Below are positions 56,409 to 62,235 of a stretch of DNA of 64,000 bases, one piece after another. The notes beneath the pieces are model-generated. The model saw only the letters and a list, made by a program, of their open reading frames with translations. It was not told the DNA's origin and searched no databases. Location: positions 62,001 through 126,000 of the forward strand of contig DPJG01000022.1 in assembly GCA_003543135.1 (NCBI GenBank), written 5' to 3'. This stretch comes from Rheinheimera sp. Its GTDB lineage: Bacteria; Pseudomonadota; Gammaproteobacteria; Enterobacterales; Alteromonadaceae. Within the stretch, counting starts at the first letter, position 1. Each line of letters begins with the position of its first letter. The translations under genes were made by a program, and so were the position numbers.

Positions 56409-59400
56409 TTATGCAGGCCGCCGTTGTACTGGTAACAGAATGCGGTAATACACGCCCTGACCTGTTTCACTGCTGACATAAATGCTGCCACCCAGTTGTG
56501 CTGTGACCAGATTGTAGACGATATGTGCGCCCAGGCCGCTGTTACCTGCACTGCGTTTGGTGGTAAAAAACGGGTCAAATAACCGTTTTAGCGTATCACT
56601 GTCCATACCCACGCCATTGTCGCGGTATTCCAGCTGAATTTGCCCGCCCTGACGGCTCAGTTTTAAGGTGATTTTTGGCTCGGCCGGCAAATCTCCGGTA
56701 AAACCATGCTGCACCGAGTTCATCACCAGATGGGTTAACAACTGCGCCAGCGAACCGGCGTCTGCATATAGGGTTAAAGCTTCGTCACTGTCGAGCTGCC
56801 ACTGGCAATGACAGCGGTTCAGCTCAGGCTGCAACGACGCCATCACATCCTGCAGATAAGCCGACAAATCAAATTCACGGGCGCTGCTGGCCGATTTATC
56901 GACCGCCACCTGTTTAAAACTTTGAATCAGCTGCGCCGCCCGCTGAATATTGCTACTGAGGATCTCTGCAGTGGCAGTGGCGGTTTCAAGAAAACGGTTA
57001 AATGCAAGCGCCCCAAGCTGTTGTTGCTGATGTGCTTTATTCACACCGTTCAGTTCAGCCTGCAAGTGACTCACGGCCGTTACACAAATGCCAAGCGGCG
57101 TATTCACTTCATGTGCCACACCGGCAACTAAGCCGCCCAGAGAAGCCATTTTTTCCTGCATCACCAGCTGCTGCTGGGTTTGTTGCAGCCGCGCCACAAT
57201 ATTGGCATTCGCCACTGCGATGGCAATATTGCTGGCCAGGGTGCGCACCAGATTCACCTGTTGTGGGCTAAAAGCGGCCACCACCGGGCTTTGTACCGTC
57301 ATACAACCTATTTTTTCGTGGTTGACGACCAGCGGCAAATACAACACCGACTGCATAGGCTCGCCCATCAGCGGCTGTGGAATTGTACTGAGGAAGTTCA
57401 GGAAATCCTGGCGTTTTTGAATATTCATTTCGCGCTGCTGATTAAAACACACAGTGGCCAGATGCTGTTCAGGCTGTAGTTTCAGCTCAAAAGGCGCCAT
57501 CAGCCGGCCGTCTTCCAGCCAGTGACTAAACTCCAGCGACTGACGCTCGGCCCGGTAAATACCAATAGCCAGCACATGCACGTCCATAATTTCGTTCAGG
57601 CTTTGGTGGCATAAAAACAAAATTTCCTGCAAATCCAGCGAAGCGGTAATTTGTTTTGCCAGCATTTGCAGCAAGGTCATATCGCGGTAAGAATCGGCCA
57701 GCGCCTGATTTTGGGTTTGTAGTTCAGCAGTGCGGTTACTGACCACCTGCTCCAGCCAGTTGCGGGTTTTGCGTTCACTGCGCAGCCGGTATTGTAACAA
57801 CAACCAGATGCTGCCAAATAACAACACCATCGCTGCCAGTTTGCTGTACCAGGTCAGCCACCAGGGCGGCAGAATACGGATTTGCACTTTGCTGACTGCT
57901 GCCTGATCCCAGTCCTGGCCCGGGCTTTTTGCCATCACTTCAAACTGATAATCATTGGGGGCCAGCCGGGTATAGGTGGCGCGCCTGCTGTTGGCATCTG
58001 TTTCTATCCAGTCACGGTCAAAACCAATCAGCCGGTAGCGGTAGCGTGTTTGTTGTGGCTGCACATAATCCAATGCTGAAAACTGCAGCGTAAACATATC
58101 CTGTTCGTAATCCAGCCTGATTTCATCGGCATAACCTATGGCTCTTTGTAATACCGCGTCAGGGCTGTTTTGTGGCCGGACTTTTTTGTTAAATAAATTA
58201 AAGCCGGTCAGCCGCACCGCCAGCGGTGCCGGAGTGGCAGGGAGCTTGGCCGGTGAATAATAATCCAGCCCCTGATTACCACCACGCAGATGCATGCCCT
58301 GTTGATTCACCAGCCAGCTGCCAATCCAGGTGGTCGCCATAAAACCATGAGGCTCGCCAAACTGCACTAAATCCTGCTGTAAGCTGGTGCGGTACAACCA
58401 TAAAAAGTGAAAAGCCTGACGCAGTTTTAAGTCGGCATCGTCGGCACCCAGATAAGATTTAAAACCTTCGATAATTTGCGGATCCTGAGTGTTTCTGAGC
58501 ACGCGATGATTAATATTGCCGGCACGCACCCAGAGTTCACCTGCTTCCTGATAAATCAGCTGGATACCGTTAAAACGTAACCCAGCCCCGCGACCGTCAC
58601 CTTCGCGCCAACTCTGAATTTTGCCTGTGGCATGCTGCAATCTGGAAATGCCCTGATCGGCATAACCTATCCACAAATCGTGATAACTGTCGGACTGCAA
58701 GGTGCTGATGGTATTACTGCCAAGACCGGTGTCGGATGCCGGGTCCTGTTTAAATTGCCGGATATCACCAGGCTTTAATAAAAACAAACCGTCGCCGCGG
58801 GTGCCTACCCAGAGTTGTTGTAATCCGTCTACATACAAGACGCCAACATTCGGTTGATCAGGTTCGGCGTTGAGCGCAAAAGGTTGCCACTGTCCTGTTT
58901 GCTGGTCGAGCTGAAATAAACCAGTGTCTGTCCCTATCCAGACCACCCCATCAGCATCCTGTAACACGTGCCTCGCCAGTGTCGGTTTGCGTTTTACCTC
59001 ATCAGCCACCTGAATGGGCCAGCGTTTTACCGACGCGGTGGCCGGGTCGAACAGGGCAATACCACCATCGCGGTTGGCGAGCCAATATTTTCCGGACGGC
59101 GCCGGGGTAATGGCAAACACATCATTATGCGCCAACAAATTTGGGTTACTTGGGTCTGTCGGCAGAGAACGGACTTTTTGCGCCATGGCCGATAAAGCAA
59201 ACAAACCGGCCGGACTTTTTAACCACAATGAACCCTGGGTATCCAGCAACAAGCCGGTCAGGTTATTACTCTGGATCTGATAAGGCACCATAGGATTGGC
59301 TTTAAACTGCTGCCAGTGCGGCTTATCCGGCGGCAACAGCCACAACCCCTGATCATAACTACTGACCCAGAGTGCACCATCTGCGGCAAAATCAAAGTCG

Positions 59401-60287
59401 GTGACCAGGCCCTGTGCCAGGGTTTTGGGTTGCGCCGGCACAGCTCTGAGTTTGGCTGAGCTGGTTTGGTAATGGTACAAACCGCCACCATAACTACCAA
59501 GCCAGATTTGACCGGTTAAATCGGTTTTAATGGCGGTAACAGCAGCTGCGGTCAGCGCTGAATTCTGGATGGTAAATAATTGTTTATCCAACCGCTGTGG
59601 ATGCCAGCGTAAAGCGCCGCCTTTGGATTGTCCTCTGCTGCGCAGCGGCGCATTGCCGGTACCAATCCATAAATAACCGTCCTGATCCCGCAGCAGGGTG
59701 TTGATGTACTGACCATCAATTTCACCGGCCACACCCGGCAGCTGTACCACTTCCAGCTCTTTGGTTTCAACCTGCCAACGGAATAAGCCGGCCCCATAGG
59801 TACCCACCCAAATCTCATGCTGCTGGTCCTGGTACACCACACTGATTTCAACCTGTTGGGCTACACCACTGCCGCGCGGCAGCGGAATACGGCTGAATTT
59901 TTCTGTGGTGGGGTCAAACAAATTCAGGCCACCGTAACGGGTGCCTATCCACACCTGGCCACGATGGTCAACCAGCAAACTGGAAATCCAGTCTGCCGAT
60001 AAGCTGCTGTTATCACTTGGATTAGAGCGGAAAGTTTCAATCTCCTGGCCGTCATAACGGTATAAACCATGCTGAGTGCCAATCCAGAGAAAGCCCTGTA
60101 AGTCCTGAGTTAAAGCTGTAGCCTGAGATAAACCCGGATGCTGACGGGACAAATGGATAAAGCGGCTGTAAACGGAAATTGGCTCTGCCGCAGTGCGGCC
60201 AACTGTGGTGTCAACACTGTTTTGTGCCAGAAGTGGTGCGGCGCAGAACCAGCAACAACAATAAACCAGTACCCACTTTAACCACAT
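56409..60287 (-). CDS. Two-component propeller sensor histidine kinase with GAF domain
   Basis: Sensor kinase of 1292 residues. A signal peptide (1-21) is followed by a two-bladed-propeller region of Reg_prop repeats (many copies of DxxGxLWIGT, for example FLWIGTQHGLYRYDG, VWIGTRYGGLNLFDP), a Y_Y_Y domain (RYRLIGFDRDWIETD), one membrane helix (SKLAAMVLLFGSIWLLLQY), a GAF domain and a kinase core with the phospho-His in GVAHEVNTPLG (about residue 1059) and ATPase box SGLGAHIVYNLV. No receiver or AraC output domain follows, so a separate partner is needed. Stops 97 bp before the DeoR start. Ligand unknown. Confidence 0.92.
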   Translation of the reverse strand: MWLKWVLVYCCCWFCAAPLLAQNSVDTTVGRTAAEPISVYSRFIHLSRQHPGLSQATALTQDLQGFLWIGTQHGLYRYDGQEIETFRSNPSDNSSLSADWISSLLVDHRGQVWIGTRYGGLNLFDPTTEKFSRIPLPRGSGVAQQVEISVVYQDQQHEIWVGTYGAGLFRWQVETKELEVVQLPGVAGEIDGQYINTLLRDQDGYLWIGTGNAPLRSRGQSKGGALRWHPQRLDKQLFTIQNSALTAAAVTAIKTDLTGQIWLGSYGGGLYHYQTSSAKLRAVPAQPKTLAQGLVTDFDFAADGALWVSSYDQGLWLLPPDKPHWQQFKANPMVPYQIQSNNLTGLLLDTQGSLWLKSPAGLFALSAMAQKVRSLPTDPSNPNLLAHNDVFAITPAPSGKYWLANRDGGIALFDPATASVKRWPIQVADEVKRKPTLARHVLQDADGVVWIGTDTGLFQLDQQTGQWQPFALNAEPDQPNVGVLYVDGLQQLWVGTRGDGLFLLKPGDIRQFKQDPASDTGLGSNTISTLQSDSYHDLWIGYADQGISRLQHATGKIQSWREGDGRGAGLRFNGIQLIYQEAGELWVRAGNINHRVLRNTQDPQIIEGFKSYLGADDADLKLRQAFHFLWLYRTSLQQDLVQFGEPHGFMATTWIGSWLVNQQGMHLRGGNQGLDYYSPAKLPATPAPLAVRLTGFNLFNKKVRPQNSPDAVLQRAIGYADEIRLDYEQDMFTLQFSALDYVQPQQTRYRYRLIGFDRDWIETDANSRRATYTRLAPNDYQFEVMAKSPGQDWDQAAVSKVQIRILPPWWLTWYSKLAAMVLLFGSIWLLLQYRLRSERKTRNWLEQVVSNRTAELQTQNQALADSYRDMTLLQMLAKQITASLDLQEILFLCHQSLNEIMDVHVLAIGIYRAERQSLEFSHWLEDGRLMAPFELKLQPEQHLATVCFNQQREMNIQKRQDFLNFLSTIPQPLMGEPMQSVLYLPLVVNHEKIGCMTVQSPVVAAFSPQQVNLVRTLASNIAIAVANANIVARLQQTQQQLVMQEKMASLGGLVAGVAHEVNTPLGICVTAVSHLQAELNGVNKAHQQQQLGALAFNRFLETATATAEILSSNIQRAAQLIQSFKQVAVDKSASSAREFDLSAYLQDVMASLQPELNRCHCQWQLDSDEALTLYADAGSLAQLLTHLVMNSVQHGFTGDLPAEPKITLKLSRQGGQIQLEYRDNGVGMDSDTLKRLFDPFFTTKRSAGNSGLGAHIVYNLVTAQLGGSIYVSSETGQGVYYRILLPVQRRPA

Positions 60288-60359: not shown

Positions 60360-60551
60360 TTACAGCCTGATGACGGCTTTTAACAAAGAACAGCATAACA
60401 GCAATAACACCAGCACGACCGCCAGTGACAACACCCGCCGGTCGAATGATTGATAAAGCAGATAGTCGATACCCATCAGTACCAAACCCGGTAACAACAG
60501 CAATAAAATCAACAGCAGCTGTACAGGCATCGCAGTTTGCATCTCCTGCAT
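60360..60551 (-). CDS. Small two-TM membrane protein under a Fur-like promoter
   Basis: Protein of 63 residues with two hydrophobic helices (about 9-28 and 38-58) joined by a short loop YLLYQSFDRR. GGGAG stands well before the ATG at 60551; the longer frame begins earlier without support. A predicted promoter lies upstream with a Fur-box-like sequence on its -35. Not recognised. Such small proteins may modify a larger membrane complex. It lies alone between a kinase gene and the RNA locus. Confidence 0.7.
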   Translation of the reverse strand: MQEMQTAMPVQLLLILLLLLPGLVLMGIDYLLYQSFDRRVLSLAVVLVLLLLCCSLLKAVIRL

Positions 60552-60611: not shown

Positions 60612-60640
60612 AGCATAATTTAAATGAGAATTATTTGCAA
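60612..60640 (-). promoter_or_regulatory. Predicted leftward promoter of the small TM gene
   Basis: Minus strand: TTGCAA, 17-bp spacer, TATGCT. Start of transcription would be about 60605, giving a leader of about 54 nt. The -35 is shared with the rightward promoter because TTGCAA is palindromic. Confidence 0.5.
60625..60639. promoter_or_regulatory. Fur-box-like site
   Basis: TGAGAAT-T-ATTTGCA matches the 7-1-7 Fur consensus TGATAAT-N-ATTATCA at 12 of 14 positions. It overlaps the -35 of both divergent promoters, so bound Fur would block both. Confidence 0.65.
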
Positions 60641-60663
60641 TAACTTAAAAGAGCTTGTATAGT
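60635..60663 (+). promoter_or_regulatory. Predicted rightward promoter of the RNA locus
   Basis: TTGCAA, 17-bp spacer, TATAGT (five of six -10 bases). Start of transcription about 60670. Confidence 0.65.
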
Positions 60664-60669
60664 TTCTGG

Positions 60670-60776
60670 CGTCAGGAAGACAAACCGTACTTGCACGGTT
60701 GACACAAGGATGCGACTCCACGGTGTAAATGCTTTTCTGCAGTTTGGGAGCTGGCCTGTACCAGCTCCCTTTTTTT
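60670..60776 (+). ncRNA. Candidate iron-regulated small RNA (about 107 nt)
   Basis: A stand-alone transcription unit with no coding gene. From 5' to 3': CGTCAGGAAGAC, hairpin AACCGT/ACGGTT with a 6-nt loop (60683-60700), a single-stranded stretch with ACACAAGGATG (close to the CsrA-binding consensus ACARGGAUG), then the terminator hairpin and a seven-U tail at 60746-60776. The 5' end TCAGGAAGAC resembles that of E. coli RyhB, but the RyhB pairing core is not seen, so I do not name it. Hfq-type U tail. It converges with the HDOD gene. Confidence 0.6.
60746..60776 (+). terminator. Strong intrinsic terminator of the RNA locus
   Basis: GGGAGCTGG and CCAGCTCCC (9 bp, perfect, CCTGTA loop) followed by seven T. 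No coding gene ends here, which supports an independent RNA. Confidence 0.92.
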
Positions 60777-60822: not shown

Positions 60823-62235
60823 TTATAACGGCGGGTGATTCTCCTGATATTGCAGCATCAGTTGCAGCGTTTGCGCCACCAATTGGAATTCTGCAAACTG
60901 ACGGTTTGTCAGCGACCGCCCTGCCGCATCGGCATATAACAGCGCAAAAATCCGTTTTTCCACTTTTAAGGCCGCCACCAGACAATCGCCGTCGCTGGGT
61001 AACAACACCTCCAGCCGGCCCAATGGCTGTGATGTGGTGTTTTGCACGCGCCAGATAGGTTGCTGATGGGTCAGCAAGTCATGTAATAACTCACCTTTTT
61101 GCAATTTATCCAGCTCAAGTTTTAATTGCTGGCGCCACAATAAAGTGTCACGCCCTGCGACATAACGGGGTTCAAACGACTTACTTTTGTAGTCCATCAA
61201 CATCAGACTGACCCTTGGCAAGGCTGCACCTTCATGCAGGCACAACACAGCCGAATGCAAAATTTTCGATAAATTGTCCTGCAGACTGAACAACTTAAAT
61301 AACATATTCAGATGGCGTACCAGCTCAAAGTCGGTCACTGAATATTGCGCTGTGGCTTCCAGCACTTTTTGGCGGTCCGGCAATTGCGGCAGAATTTTAT
61401 CGGCGCCATAACTGCTGGCCACTACTGCAGCTTCGTCTGCCATCAGCAGAATTTGTTGTTGGCTTTCTTCCAGCTTTAAATGACACATCATTGCCAATTG
61501 CTGGCAATTACGTGCCATCTGAGGCGAGGTCAGCCCTTGCATAATATGCTGGCTGATACTGTCGGCCAGATTGATCACAGCGCTGATGGCATTGCCTTTT
61601 GCGTTCGGATTCACCACATCCTGCAACATGTCCCCCAGCTTCCATTCTTTCACCAGCTCCCGGTTCAGGGTATCGATGCCGACACCCAGATATTTCATCG
61701 CAATGGCATGTTCATCGTCCGGGTACAGATCCCGTTCGACAATAAACTGTTCGGCGGCAGGCTCTCCGCTCGCCAGTAAAGCAAGTTCGGCCACATGGCG
61801 TAATAAAGCGGCTATAAACACCTGCTCGCGGCGCTCGCTGTCCAGTTTAGGCACCATAGCACGCGCCTGCACCGCAGCGTGAAACGAACGGGCCAGCCGT
61901 TGTAACAACAAGGTTTTGGGTTTGCCGGTGAGAAAACTGTCAATCAGCACACTGGCCAATGTAATGTTTTTTACTTCAACAAAACCTATCTGCACTATCG
62001 CACGCGACACCGTTTGGATAGGTTTACTGGATCTGTTGTAGTGCACAGTGTTGGCGACCCGCAACACTTTGGAGGTCAGGCTGGCGTCACGCAAAATAAT
62101 TTGTGCCAGATCATCTGCACTGCTTTCTGCGCTGTCATTAAGCTGACACACCTCCAGCACCACACTCTGGATGGCCGGCAATTTGATTTGACCAAGCAAC
62201 CGCATCCAGGCCGCCGGCCCTCTTACTTCAGCCAT
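60823..62235 (-). CDS. HDOD and GAF domain protein
   Basis: Protein of 470 residues. The first 230 are an HDOD domain (LGQIKLPAIQSVVLEVCQL, ILRDASLTSKVLRVAN, IQIGF-type and HVAELALLASGE), an HD-like fold with no metal-binding HD pair. Residues about 295-465 look like a GAF domain (SVTDFELVRHLNMLFKLF, AALKVEKRIFALLYADA). Such proteins often act in c-di-GMP-linked signalling. GGAGG fixes ATG 62235. Ends 46 bp after the RNA terminator. Confidence 0.85.
   Translation of the reverse strand: MAEVRGPAAWMRLLGQIKLPAIQSVVLEVCQLNDSAESSADDLAQIILRDASLTSKVLRVANTVHYNRSSKPIQTVSRAIVQIGFVEVKNITLASVLIDSFLTGKPKTLLLQRLARSFHAAVQARAMVPKLDSERREQVFIAALLRHVAELALLASGEPAAEQFIVERDLYPDDEHAIAMKYLGVGIDTLNRELVKEWKLGDMLQDVVNPNAKGNAISAVINLADSISQHIMQGLTSPQMARNCQQLAMMCHLKLEESQQQILLMADEAAVVASSYGADKILPQLPDRQKVLEATAQYSVTDFELVRHLNMLFKLFSLQDNLSKILHSAVLCLHEGAALPRVSLMLMDYKSKSFEPRYVAGRDTLLWRQQLKLELDKLQKGELLHDLLTHQQPIWRVQNTTSQPLGRLEVLLPSDGDCLVAALKVEKRIFALLYADAAGRSLTNRQFAEFQLVAQTLQLMLQYQENHPPL

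Follow-up and report, generated by a model that had tools for sequence, protein, structure and literature searches.

Iron-repressed, iron-sparing RNAs are known from unrelated bacteria. RyhB in E. coli lowers the production of iron-using enzymes, superoxide dismutase among them, PrrF is Fur-repressed and iron-sparing, and HrrF, BrrF, IsrR, FsrA and RusT are iron-repressed RNAs with a RyhB-like role in other groups. A passage of one published study describes a Fur site and complementarity to sodB as all that persists among ryhB genes, PrrF of P. aeruginosa as a tandem pair and the RyhB of Shewanella as having escaped both BLAST and Rfam (PMC2964681). Sequence searches can thus miss iron-sparing RNAs, as the same passage illustrates for Shewanella.

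Here we describe an RNA gene from a 3.99-Mb Rheinheimera genome (G000), located in a stretch of 64,000 nucleotides that was analysed as a whole and is called the window (G000:C26:62001-126000). The feature, composed of a Fur-type box, a two-way promoter and a terminated RNA unit, is real. It is a genuine, previously unannotated RNA gene, and probably a new, clade-specific addition to an established functional class rather than a new kind of system. Among the titles and abstract openings listed for Rheinheimera, Alteromonas and RyhB analogues, a source that does not prove absence in print, none mentions this RNA. On balance we favor, with confidence somewhat above even, the reading that the gene is repressed by Fur and that its RNA spares iron by base pairing, acting on sodB as a functional counterpart of RyhB in a part of the genus.

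The locus resembles RyhB in the Fur-type box that lies over its promoter (at the sequence level, in 9/9 loci), in a length of about 100 nt (K-12 RyhB is annotated at 95 nt), in its strong terminator with a long U tract and in a predicted pairing with the ribosome-binding region of sodB in 8/9 genomes, although short-window scoring did not reveal this pairing. It differs from RyhB in its pairing sequence, in that bfr is not a predicted target, in the two-way switch common with a small protein, and in its neighbors, which are not the yhhX and yhhY that flank RyhB in K-12. The likeness to PrrF (RF00444) of Pseudomonas is confined to the functional idea of a Fur-repressed, iron-sparing RNA: PrrF is a tandem pair there, whereas the Rheinheimera RNA gives one match per genome. 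HrrF, BrrF, IsrR, FsrA and RusT belong to the same function class and are likened here by description of their role.

At the center of the locus stands the hexamer TTGCAA (60635-60640), which is its own reverse complement and can act as the -35 element of two opposite promoters. On the + strand the RNA promoter has its -10 hexamer TATAGT at 60658-60663; on the - strand TATGCT at 60612-60617 belongs to the promoter of a small hydrophobic protein; both stand 17 bp from the common -35. The Fur-type 7-1-7 box TGAGAAT-T-ATTTGCA (TGAGAATTATTTGCA, 60625-60639) overlaps the palindrome. The predicted small RNA of about 107 nt would run on the + strand from 60669 to 60776, with the start placed from the promoter spacing and the end from the terminator. 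This intrinsic terminator (60746-60776, + strand) has a perfect 9-bp stem, GGGAGCTGG/CCAGCTCCC, spanning 60746-60769 with a 6-nt loop and followed by seven T. No + strand gene was seen downstream of the RNA, and the next long open reading frame, encoding an HDOD protein on the - strand, is convergent. As judged from its DNA, the unit is thus a discrete RNA with its own promoter and terminator. The original prediction had described the palindromic -35 with 17-bp spacers to TATAGT on the right and TATGCT on the left, as well as a 107-nt unit with a hairpin, a perfect 9-bp terminator with seven T and no gene, and the coordinates bear all of this out. Its count of 12 of 14 consensus positions for the box has to be corrected, since a recount against the TGATAATNATTATCA consensus gives 11/14.

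Taken alone, none of the consensus matches to box, promoter or terminator is clearly above chance. The window holds two promoter-like sites against 0.9 expected, two terminator-like sites against 0.8 expected and four consensus box matches against 1.78 expected, a number that 11 of 100 shuffles reach. TTGCAA occurs 17 times in the window, and only the copy at 60635-60640 has a -10-like hexamer (at least 4/6 matches, A at position 2, T at position 6) at 17 bp on both sides. What raises the locus above chance is that the box is invariant, bar its center base, in all nine homologous loci beside a variable spacer. Near-chance consensus matches, together with a predicted folding in one homologue (G010) that is no better than that of shuffles, are what would be expected if there were no functional RNA here, only a leader or a 3' end, or a promoter and a terminator paired by chance. 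We give this reading almost no weight, as no + strand gene is seen downstream, no reading frame survives the indels in the core, and box, spacing, core and terminator are conserved in nine genomes. No phage match was found.

A DNA search found long matches to the locus in nine of 22 Rheinheimera genomes, namely G000, G015, G018, G004, G007, G009, G021, G016 and G010. Twelve genus genomes gave no locus match; a thirteenth without a match, G012, is not judgeable because its HDOD neighbor lies at a contig end, and it was excluded from the RNA-less group, leaving 12. Matches in G011 and G017 cover 26-27 bases only, lie inside open reading frames of 219 and 488 codons and were not counted. The Fur-type box occupies the same place in each of the nine, with 14 of its 15 positions invariant, and the conserved block extends a few bases past it on both sides. 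The rightward -10 stands at 17 bp in every case (TATAGT in six, TATGGT in two and TAAGGT, a poor 3/6 match, in G016). At the same distance the leftward -10 reads TATGCT in five genomes, TATTTT in three and AAAAAT in G010, each a 4/6 match, of which AAAAAT is the least convincing. Loss of the promoter and of stem pairing in close relatives had been named beforehand as evidence against the prediction; instead, the nine keep the box, the rightward spacing, the paired stems and the terminator, even with the 3/6 hexamer of G016. Beyond the locus, on other contigs or at other places, G016 and G021 each carry a second match of 22 bases in common with the window (L015 and L016), consisting of the same box in front of another gene with box-like repeats behind it.

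For a wider survey, the nine homologues were used to build a covariance model of the 56-nt core of the RNA, promoter sequence excluded, which therefore matches them at E 2e-13 or better, with one match per genome. Applied to 395 genomes of the family, drawn from a larger group and scored under stricter filters, the model gave no other strong match. Seven weak hits (7/395 genomes, E 5e-4 to 0.009), where about four are expected by chance at E 0.01 in 395 genomes, all lie in open reading frames of at least 250 codons, none near a Fur-type box, and were rejected. Thus, as far as the genomes searched show, the RNA is confined to part of one genus. The convergent HDOD gene (60823-62235, - strand) is present in 8/9 RNA-bearing genomes and in G012, at the contig end, and none of the remaining 12 genus genomes matches it at E <= 1e-30. 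G010 has the RNA without this neighbor, which argues that the RNA is not merely carried along with the HDOD gene.

An extended pattern of the box, AATGAGAATNATTTGCA, with up to three mismatches allowed, occurs 41 times in the whole genome compared to 12 for the reversed pattern used as a control. Thirty of these places were fetched: 21 lie inside open reading frames of at least 100 codons and nine between them, the site at the RNA locus included. Most of the nine intergenic sites stand before iron-uptake genes; boxes precede the start of a TonB-dependent receptor (L048), tonB (L050, L062), another TonB receptor that neighbors a PepSY protein (L054, L055), and a PKHD-type hydroxylase (L070), while those at L051 and L069 have no obvious iron link. 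The genome encodes two FUR-family proteins, scoring 157 and 61 bits. The RNA gene is very probably under Fur, which we infer to bind the box. As further details of these sites, L051 (G000:C24:63938-63954) lies just ahead of an open reading frame for a Fic-domain protein, and at L050/L062 (G000:C2:224625-224643), about 50 bp ahead of tonB, two box matches overlap on opposite strands.

The RNA is built of conserved modules. The 5' hairpin GUC-AGGAA-GAC (60671-60681, + strand) has an invariant stem, is paired in 6/6 distinct sequences and follows the form GUC-AGGAN-GAC, or GUC-AUGGA-GAC in G004 and G007, with GGA kept in the loop. It is followed by the hairpin AACCG-UACUUGCA-CGGUU (60683-60700, + strand), with an invariant CUUGC in the loop and 96.6% of cells paired. 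Next comes GGAU...UCCACGGU, whose invariant UCCACGGU is overlapped by CUCCAC (60716-60721, + strand; 7/9 homologues, with AUCCAC in G004 and G007), a complement of the sodB Shine-Dalgarno sequence GUGGAG. A conserved U-rich element of the form UUCUGC(A/C)G, UUUCUGCA in the window (60734-60741, + strand), is complementary to UGCAGAAA in the sodB leader. By eye, all nine loci have a T-tailed terminator stem, whose sequence differs between subclades and has one mismatch in G009. The RNAs of G004 and G007 are about 76 and 126 nt longer than that of G000, with the extra sequence, partly different between them, lying between core and terminator. The RNA may use a chaperone; of features bearing on Hfq, its sequence shows only a U-rich stretch and the seven terminal T.

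Across the helices 98.5% of cells are paired, and one pair, in helix 2, is changed on both sides (AU to CG). The resulting covariation score of 0.170, against 0.089 in shuffles, is reached by 34 of 500 shuffles and supports helix 2 modestly; as helices 1 and 3 show no variation, covariation speaks neither for nor against them. Folding energy is weak evidence for an RNA, with z values against shuffles of -1.97 (G000), -1.55 (G018), -2.05 (G021) and +0.26 (G010). A frame starting from GTC is stop-free over 54 nt in all nine loci; indels of 1-2 nt between subclades break it, and a coding reading of the RNA was rejected.

GGA in a hairpin loop is the CsrA motif. With GGA in the loop of hairpin 1 in 9/9 homologues, at a place that shifts by one (AGGAA, AGGAU, AGGAC, AUGGA), and a second GGA that is invariant, the RNA could be one that binds or sequesters CsrA/RsmA through its other GGA motifs as well as the GUC-loop-GAC hairpin, which is invariant. 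The total of three to five GGA per RNA is, however, below that of CsrB-type sponges, which carry more, and we hold this function to be very improbable.

Known RNA families do not account for the locus. A cmscan search of the window with all 4227 Rfam families returned nothing at gathering score, and no RyhB or PrrF hit; at the locus itself, with E up to 10, there were two implausible hits only, and RyhB and PrrF were absent. The RyhB model (RF00057, threshold 55 bits) has no match in the G000 genome, with a positive E. coli control. Among 394 genomes of the order, 162 match the RyhB model at E 0.01 or better and, among the matches listed, one weak match (E 0.0075) falls in the family of the window. 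In the covariance-model and Rfam check proposed with the original prediction, the RNA unit recurs in nine genomes of the genus and matches no Rfam family. The RyhB core, GCACGACAUUGCUCACAUUGCUUCC, is absent from the Rheinheimera RNA; at the sequence level the locus combines a Fur site and sodB complementarity without that core.

Could the RNA nevertheless be a strongly diverged true RyhB homologue, with the 5' end kept and the core lost or replaced? The 10-nt sequence TCAGGAAGAC is common to K-12 RyhB and the RNAs of G000, G015 and G018, at distances from the inferred 5' end that are one base apart, and a match of this length to K-12 RyhB at any position arises in only 9 of 2000 shuffles. Rfam could not see it because the RyhB model starts downstream of it, and the cited passage on Shewanella RyhB reports a homologue missed by BLAST and Rfam (PMC2964681). 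Against descent stand the absent core, the other six homologues without the 10-nt match and the score of R1 against K-12 RyhB, only 4.3 bits; the exact TCAGGAAGAC is found in only 6 of 30 inspected RyhB loci, and we regard homology as unlikely.

The function proposed for the RNA depends on its targets. The genes sodB, sdhC and sdhD and two ferritin-family genes were examined because they represent the classic RyhB regulon. Scoring in 22-nt windows placed sodB at rank 111 of 152 in G000 and 3 of 17 in G018; it shows no preference for sodB and counts against the sodB reading. CUCCAC and UUUCUGCA complement, in antiparallel order, the sodB Shine-Dalgarno sequence and a block that lies upstream. 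CUCCAC takes part in the best sodB duplex only for G000, G015, G018 and G010; in G009, G016 and G021 the Shine-Dalgarno sequence is covered by bases downstream of CUCCAC, and the best duplexes of G004 and G007 use their extra stretch. When this chosen RNA segment was compared with 151 start regions, the regions matching or beating sodB numbered 3, 0, 0 and 11 for G000, G015, G018 and G010, respectively. At this level the observed value is reached by 92 of 1000 leader shuffles for G009 and by 90 of 1000 for G021, and the RNAs of G007, G016 and G021 bind some leaders of RNA-less genomes better than their own.

When the entire RNA body was tested on 414 start regions from the G000 genome, sodB ranks 3 and sdhD ranks 7 (mean z for the RNAs of G000, G015 and G018). 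We also combined each RNA with the sodB leader of its own genome, against a background that was throughout the 414 regions of G000, its sodB included. The regions binding as well as or better than sodB number 10 for G000, 4 for G015, 2 for G018, 2 for G004, 12 for G009, 13 for G021, 10 for G016 and 5 for G010, so that in 8/9 genomes, which are related and hence do not yield independent results, only 2-13 of 414 regions match or beat sodB; G007 fails, with 92/414. Of 300 dinucleotide-shuffled leaders, 2-15 bind as strongly as observed (80 for G007), and of 300 shuffled RNAs 1-16 do so (seven RNAs tested). These statistics of long duplexes are partly post hoc because the tests followed inspection of the sodB leader. 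The sodB leader of the same genome outbinds the leaders of the 12 RNA-less genomes (5 distinct) in 8/9 cases.

G009, G016 and G021 carry GUUCUGCA in the RNA and UGCAGAAC in sodB, compared to UUUCUGCA and UGCAGAAA in G000, G015 and G018, which is one compensatory change in the predicted RNA-sodB pairing. The sodB leaders of the 12 RNA-less genomes have UACGGAG instead of (G/A)UGGAG, and UGCAGAC; those of RNA-bearing genomes have (G/A)UGGAG, with UGCAGAA in 7/9 and UGCAGAC in G004 and G007. As both groups are likely clades, this difference by RNA presence may reflect few independent events.

These data bear on the possibility that the RNA is a Fur-repressed small RNA with other main targets, its sodB pairing being incidental and helped by the CUCC anti-Shine-Dalgarno motif. 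The short-window rank of 111/152 in G000, the failure of G007 in the whole-body test, the weak segment-level controls for G009, G016 and G021 and the invariant CUUGC loop, which lies outside the sodB segment and is predicted to be open in those same three genomes, would all fit. Incidental pairing would, however, not be expected to give strong whole-body sodB binding in 8/9 genomes whose RNAs differ in their middle part, nor a sodB leader that differs, near both pairing blocks, between genomes with and without the RNA. Other main targets are therefore conceivable but on the improbable side, and the RNA is probably, as modeled here, an iron-sparing regulator acting on sodB. The proposal that it plays the part of RyhB or PrrF gains support from the predicted sodB pairing in 8/9 genomes and is weakened by the short-window scoring, by the bfr result, by the leading place of sdhD in G000 and G015 only and by the absence of RyhB or PrrF sequence membership.

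Among the other candidates, sdhD is matched or bettered by 5 of 414 regions in G000, 0 in G015, 38 in G018, 82 in G004, 97 in G007, 154 in G009, 243 in G021, 103 in G016 and 57 in G010; leading only in G000 and G015, it may be a target. The corresponding numbers for sdhC are 26, 14, 25, 39, 53, 201, 201, 247 and 29, in the same order of genomes. The ferritin-family genes bfr1 and bfr2, at whole-body ranks 126 and 223 of 414, were rejected as targets. A further Fe/Mn superoxide dismutase gene, whose leader is different, is present in G004 (L077, G004:C25).

In the favored model of an iron-sparing RNA acting on sodB, Fur would bind 60625-60639 when iron is present and block the -35 common to the back-to-back promoters. 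When iron is scarce, both promoters would fire, producing a 63-aa membrane-type protein leftward and the 107-nt RNA rightward. The 3' half of the RNA (CUCCACGGUGU...UUUCUGCA) would pair with the sodB leader between about -37 and -7, and as the Shine-Dalgarno sequence would thereby be covered, synthesis of FeSOD should fall. In some species sdhCD might be a further target. The RNA would thus work like RyhB, sparing iron, without the RyhB core sequence. It offers a candidate in a genome without any hit to the RyhB model, and in a genus that allows RNA presence or absence to be set against the sodB leader. Should it be confirmed, it would be a case of co-evolution between an RNA and its target, and would provide a testable function for the small membrane-type protein under the same switch.

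The gene for this divergent protein of 63 aa, preceded by a Shine-Dalgarno sequence, lies at 60360-60551 on the - strand, and open frames of 32-66 aa occupy the same place in 9/9 loci. Pairwise pN/pS values of 0.17/0.55 (G000-G018), 0.04/0.27 (G004-G007), 0.05/0.16 (G021-G009), 0.21/0.66 (G021-G016) and, on five changes, 0.01/0.06 (G000-G015) show a pattern that reads as purifying selection. The protein matches no Pfam family, and no NCBIfam family above cut-off. The earlier claim of a small membrane protein on a common switch gains comparative support as to the switch, as the divergent hydrophobic frame is conserved, as is the box that covers both -35 elements; that the protein spans the membrane is a prediction judged from composition alone. 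A more elaborate two-output switch can be imagined, in which a base-pairing RNA with a 5' CsrA-type GGA hairpin links iron starvation to Csr, the co-induced membrane protein serves the same response and the RNA takes the place of RyhB in a lineage from which RyhB was lost or always absent; we consider this speculative scheme quite unlikely. Beyond the small protein, at 56409-60287 on the - strand, the window encodes a sensor-kinase-like protein of 1292 aa, in which Reg_prop, Y_Y_Y, GAF and HATPase_c domains are recognized.
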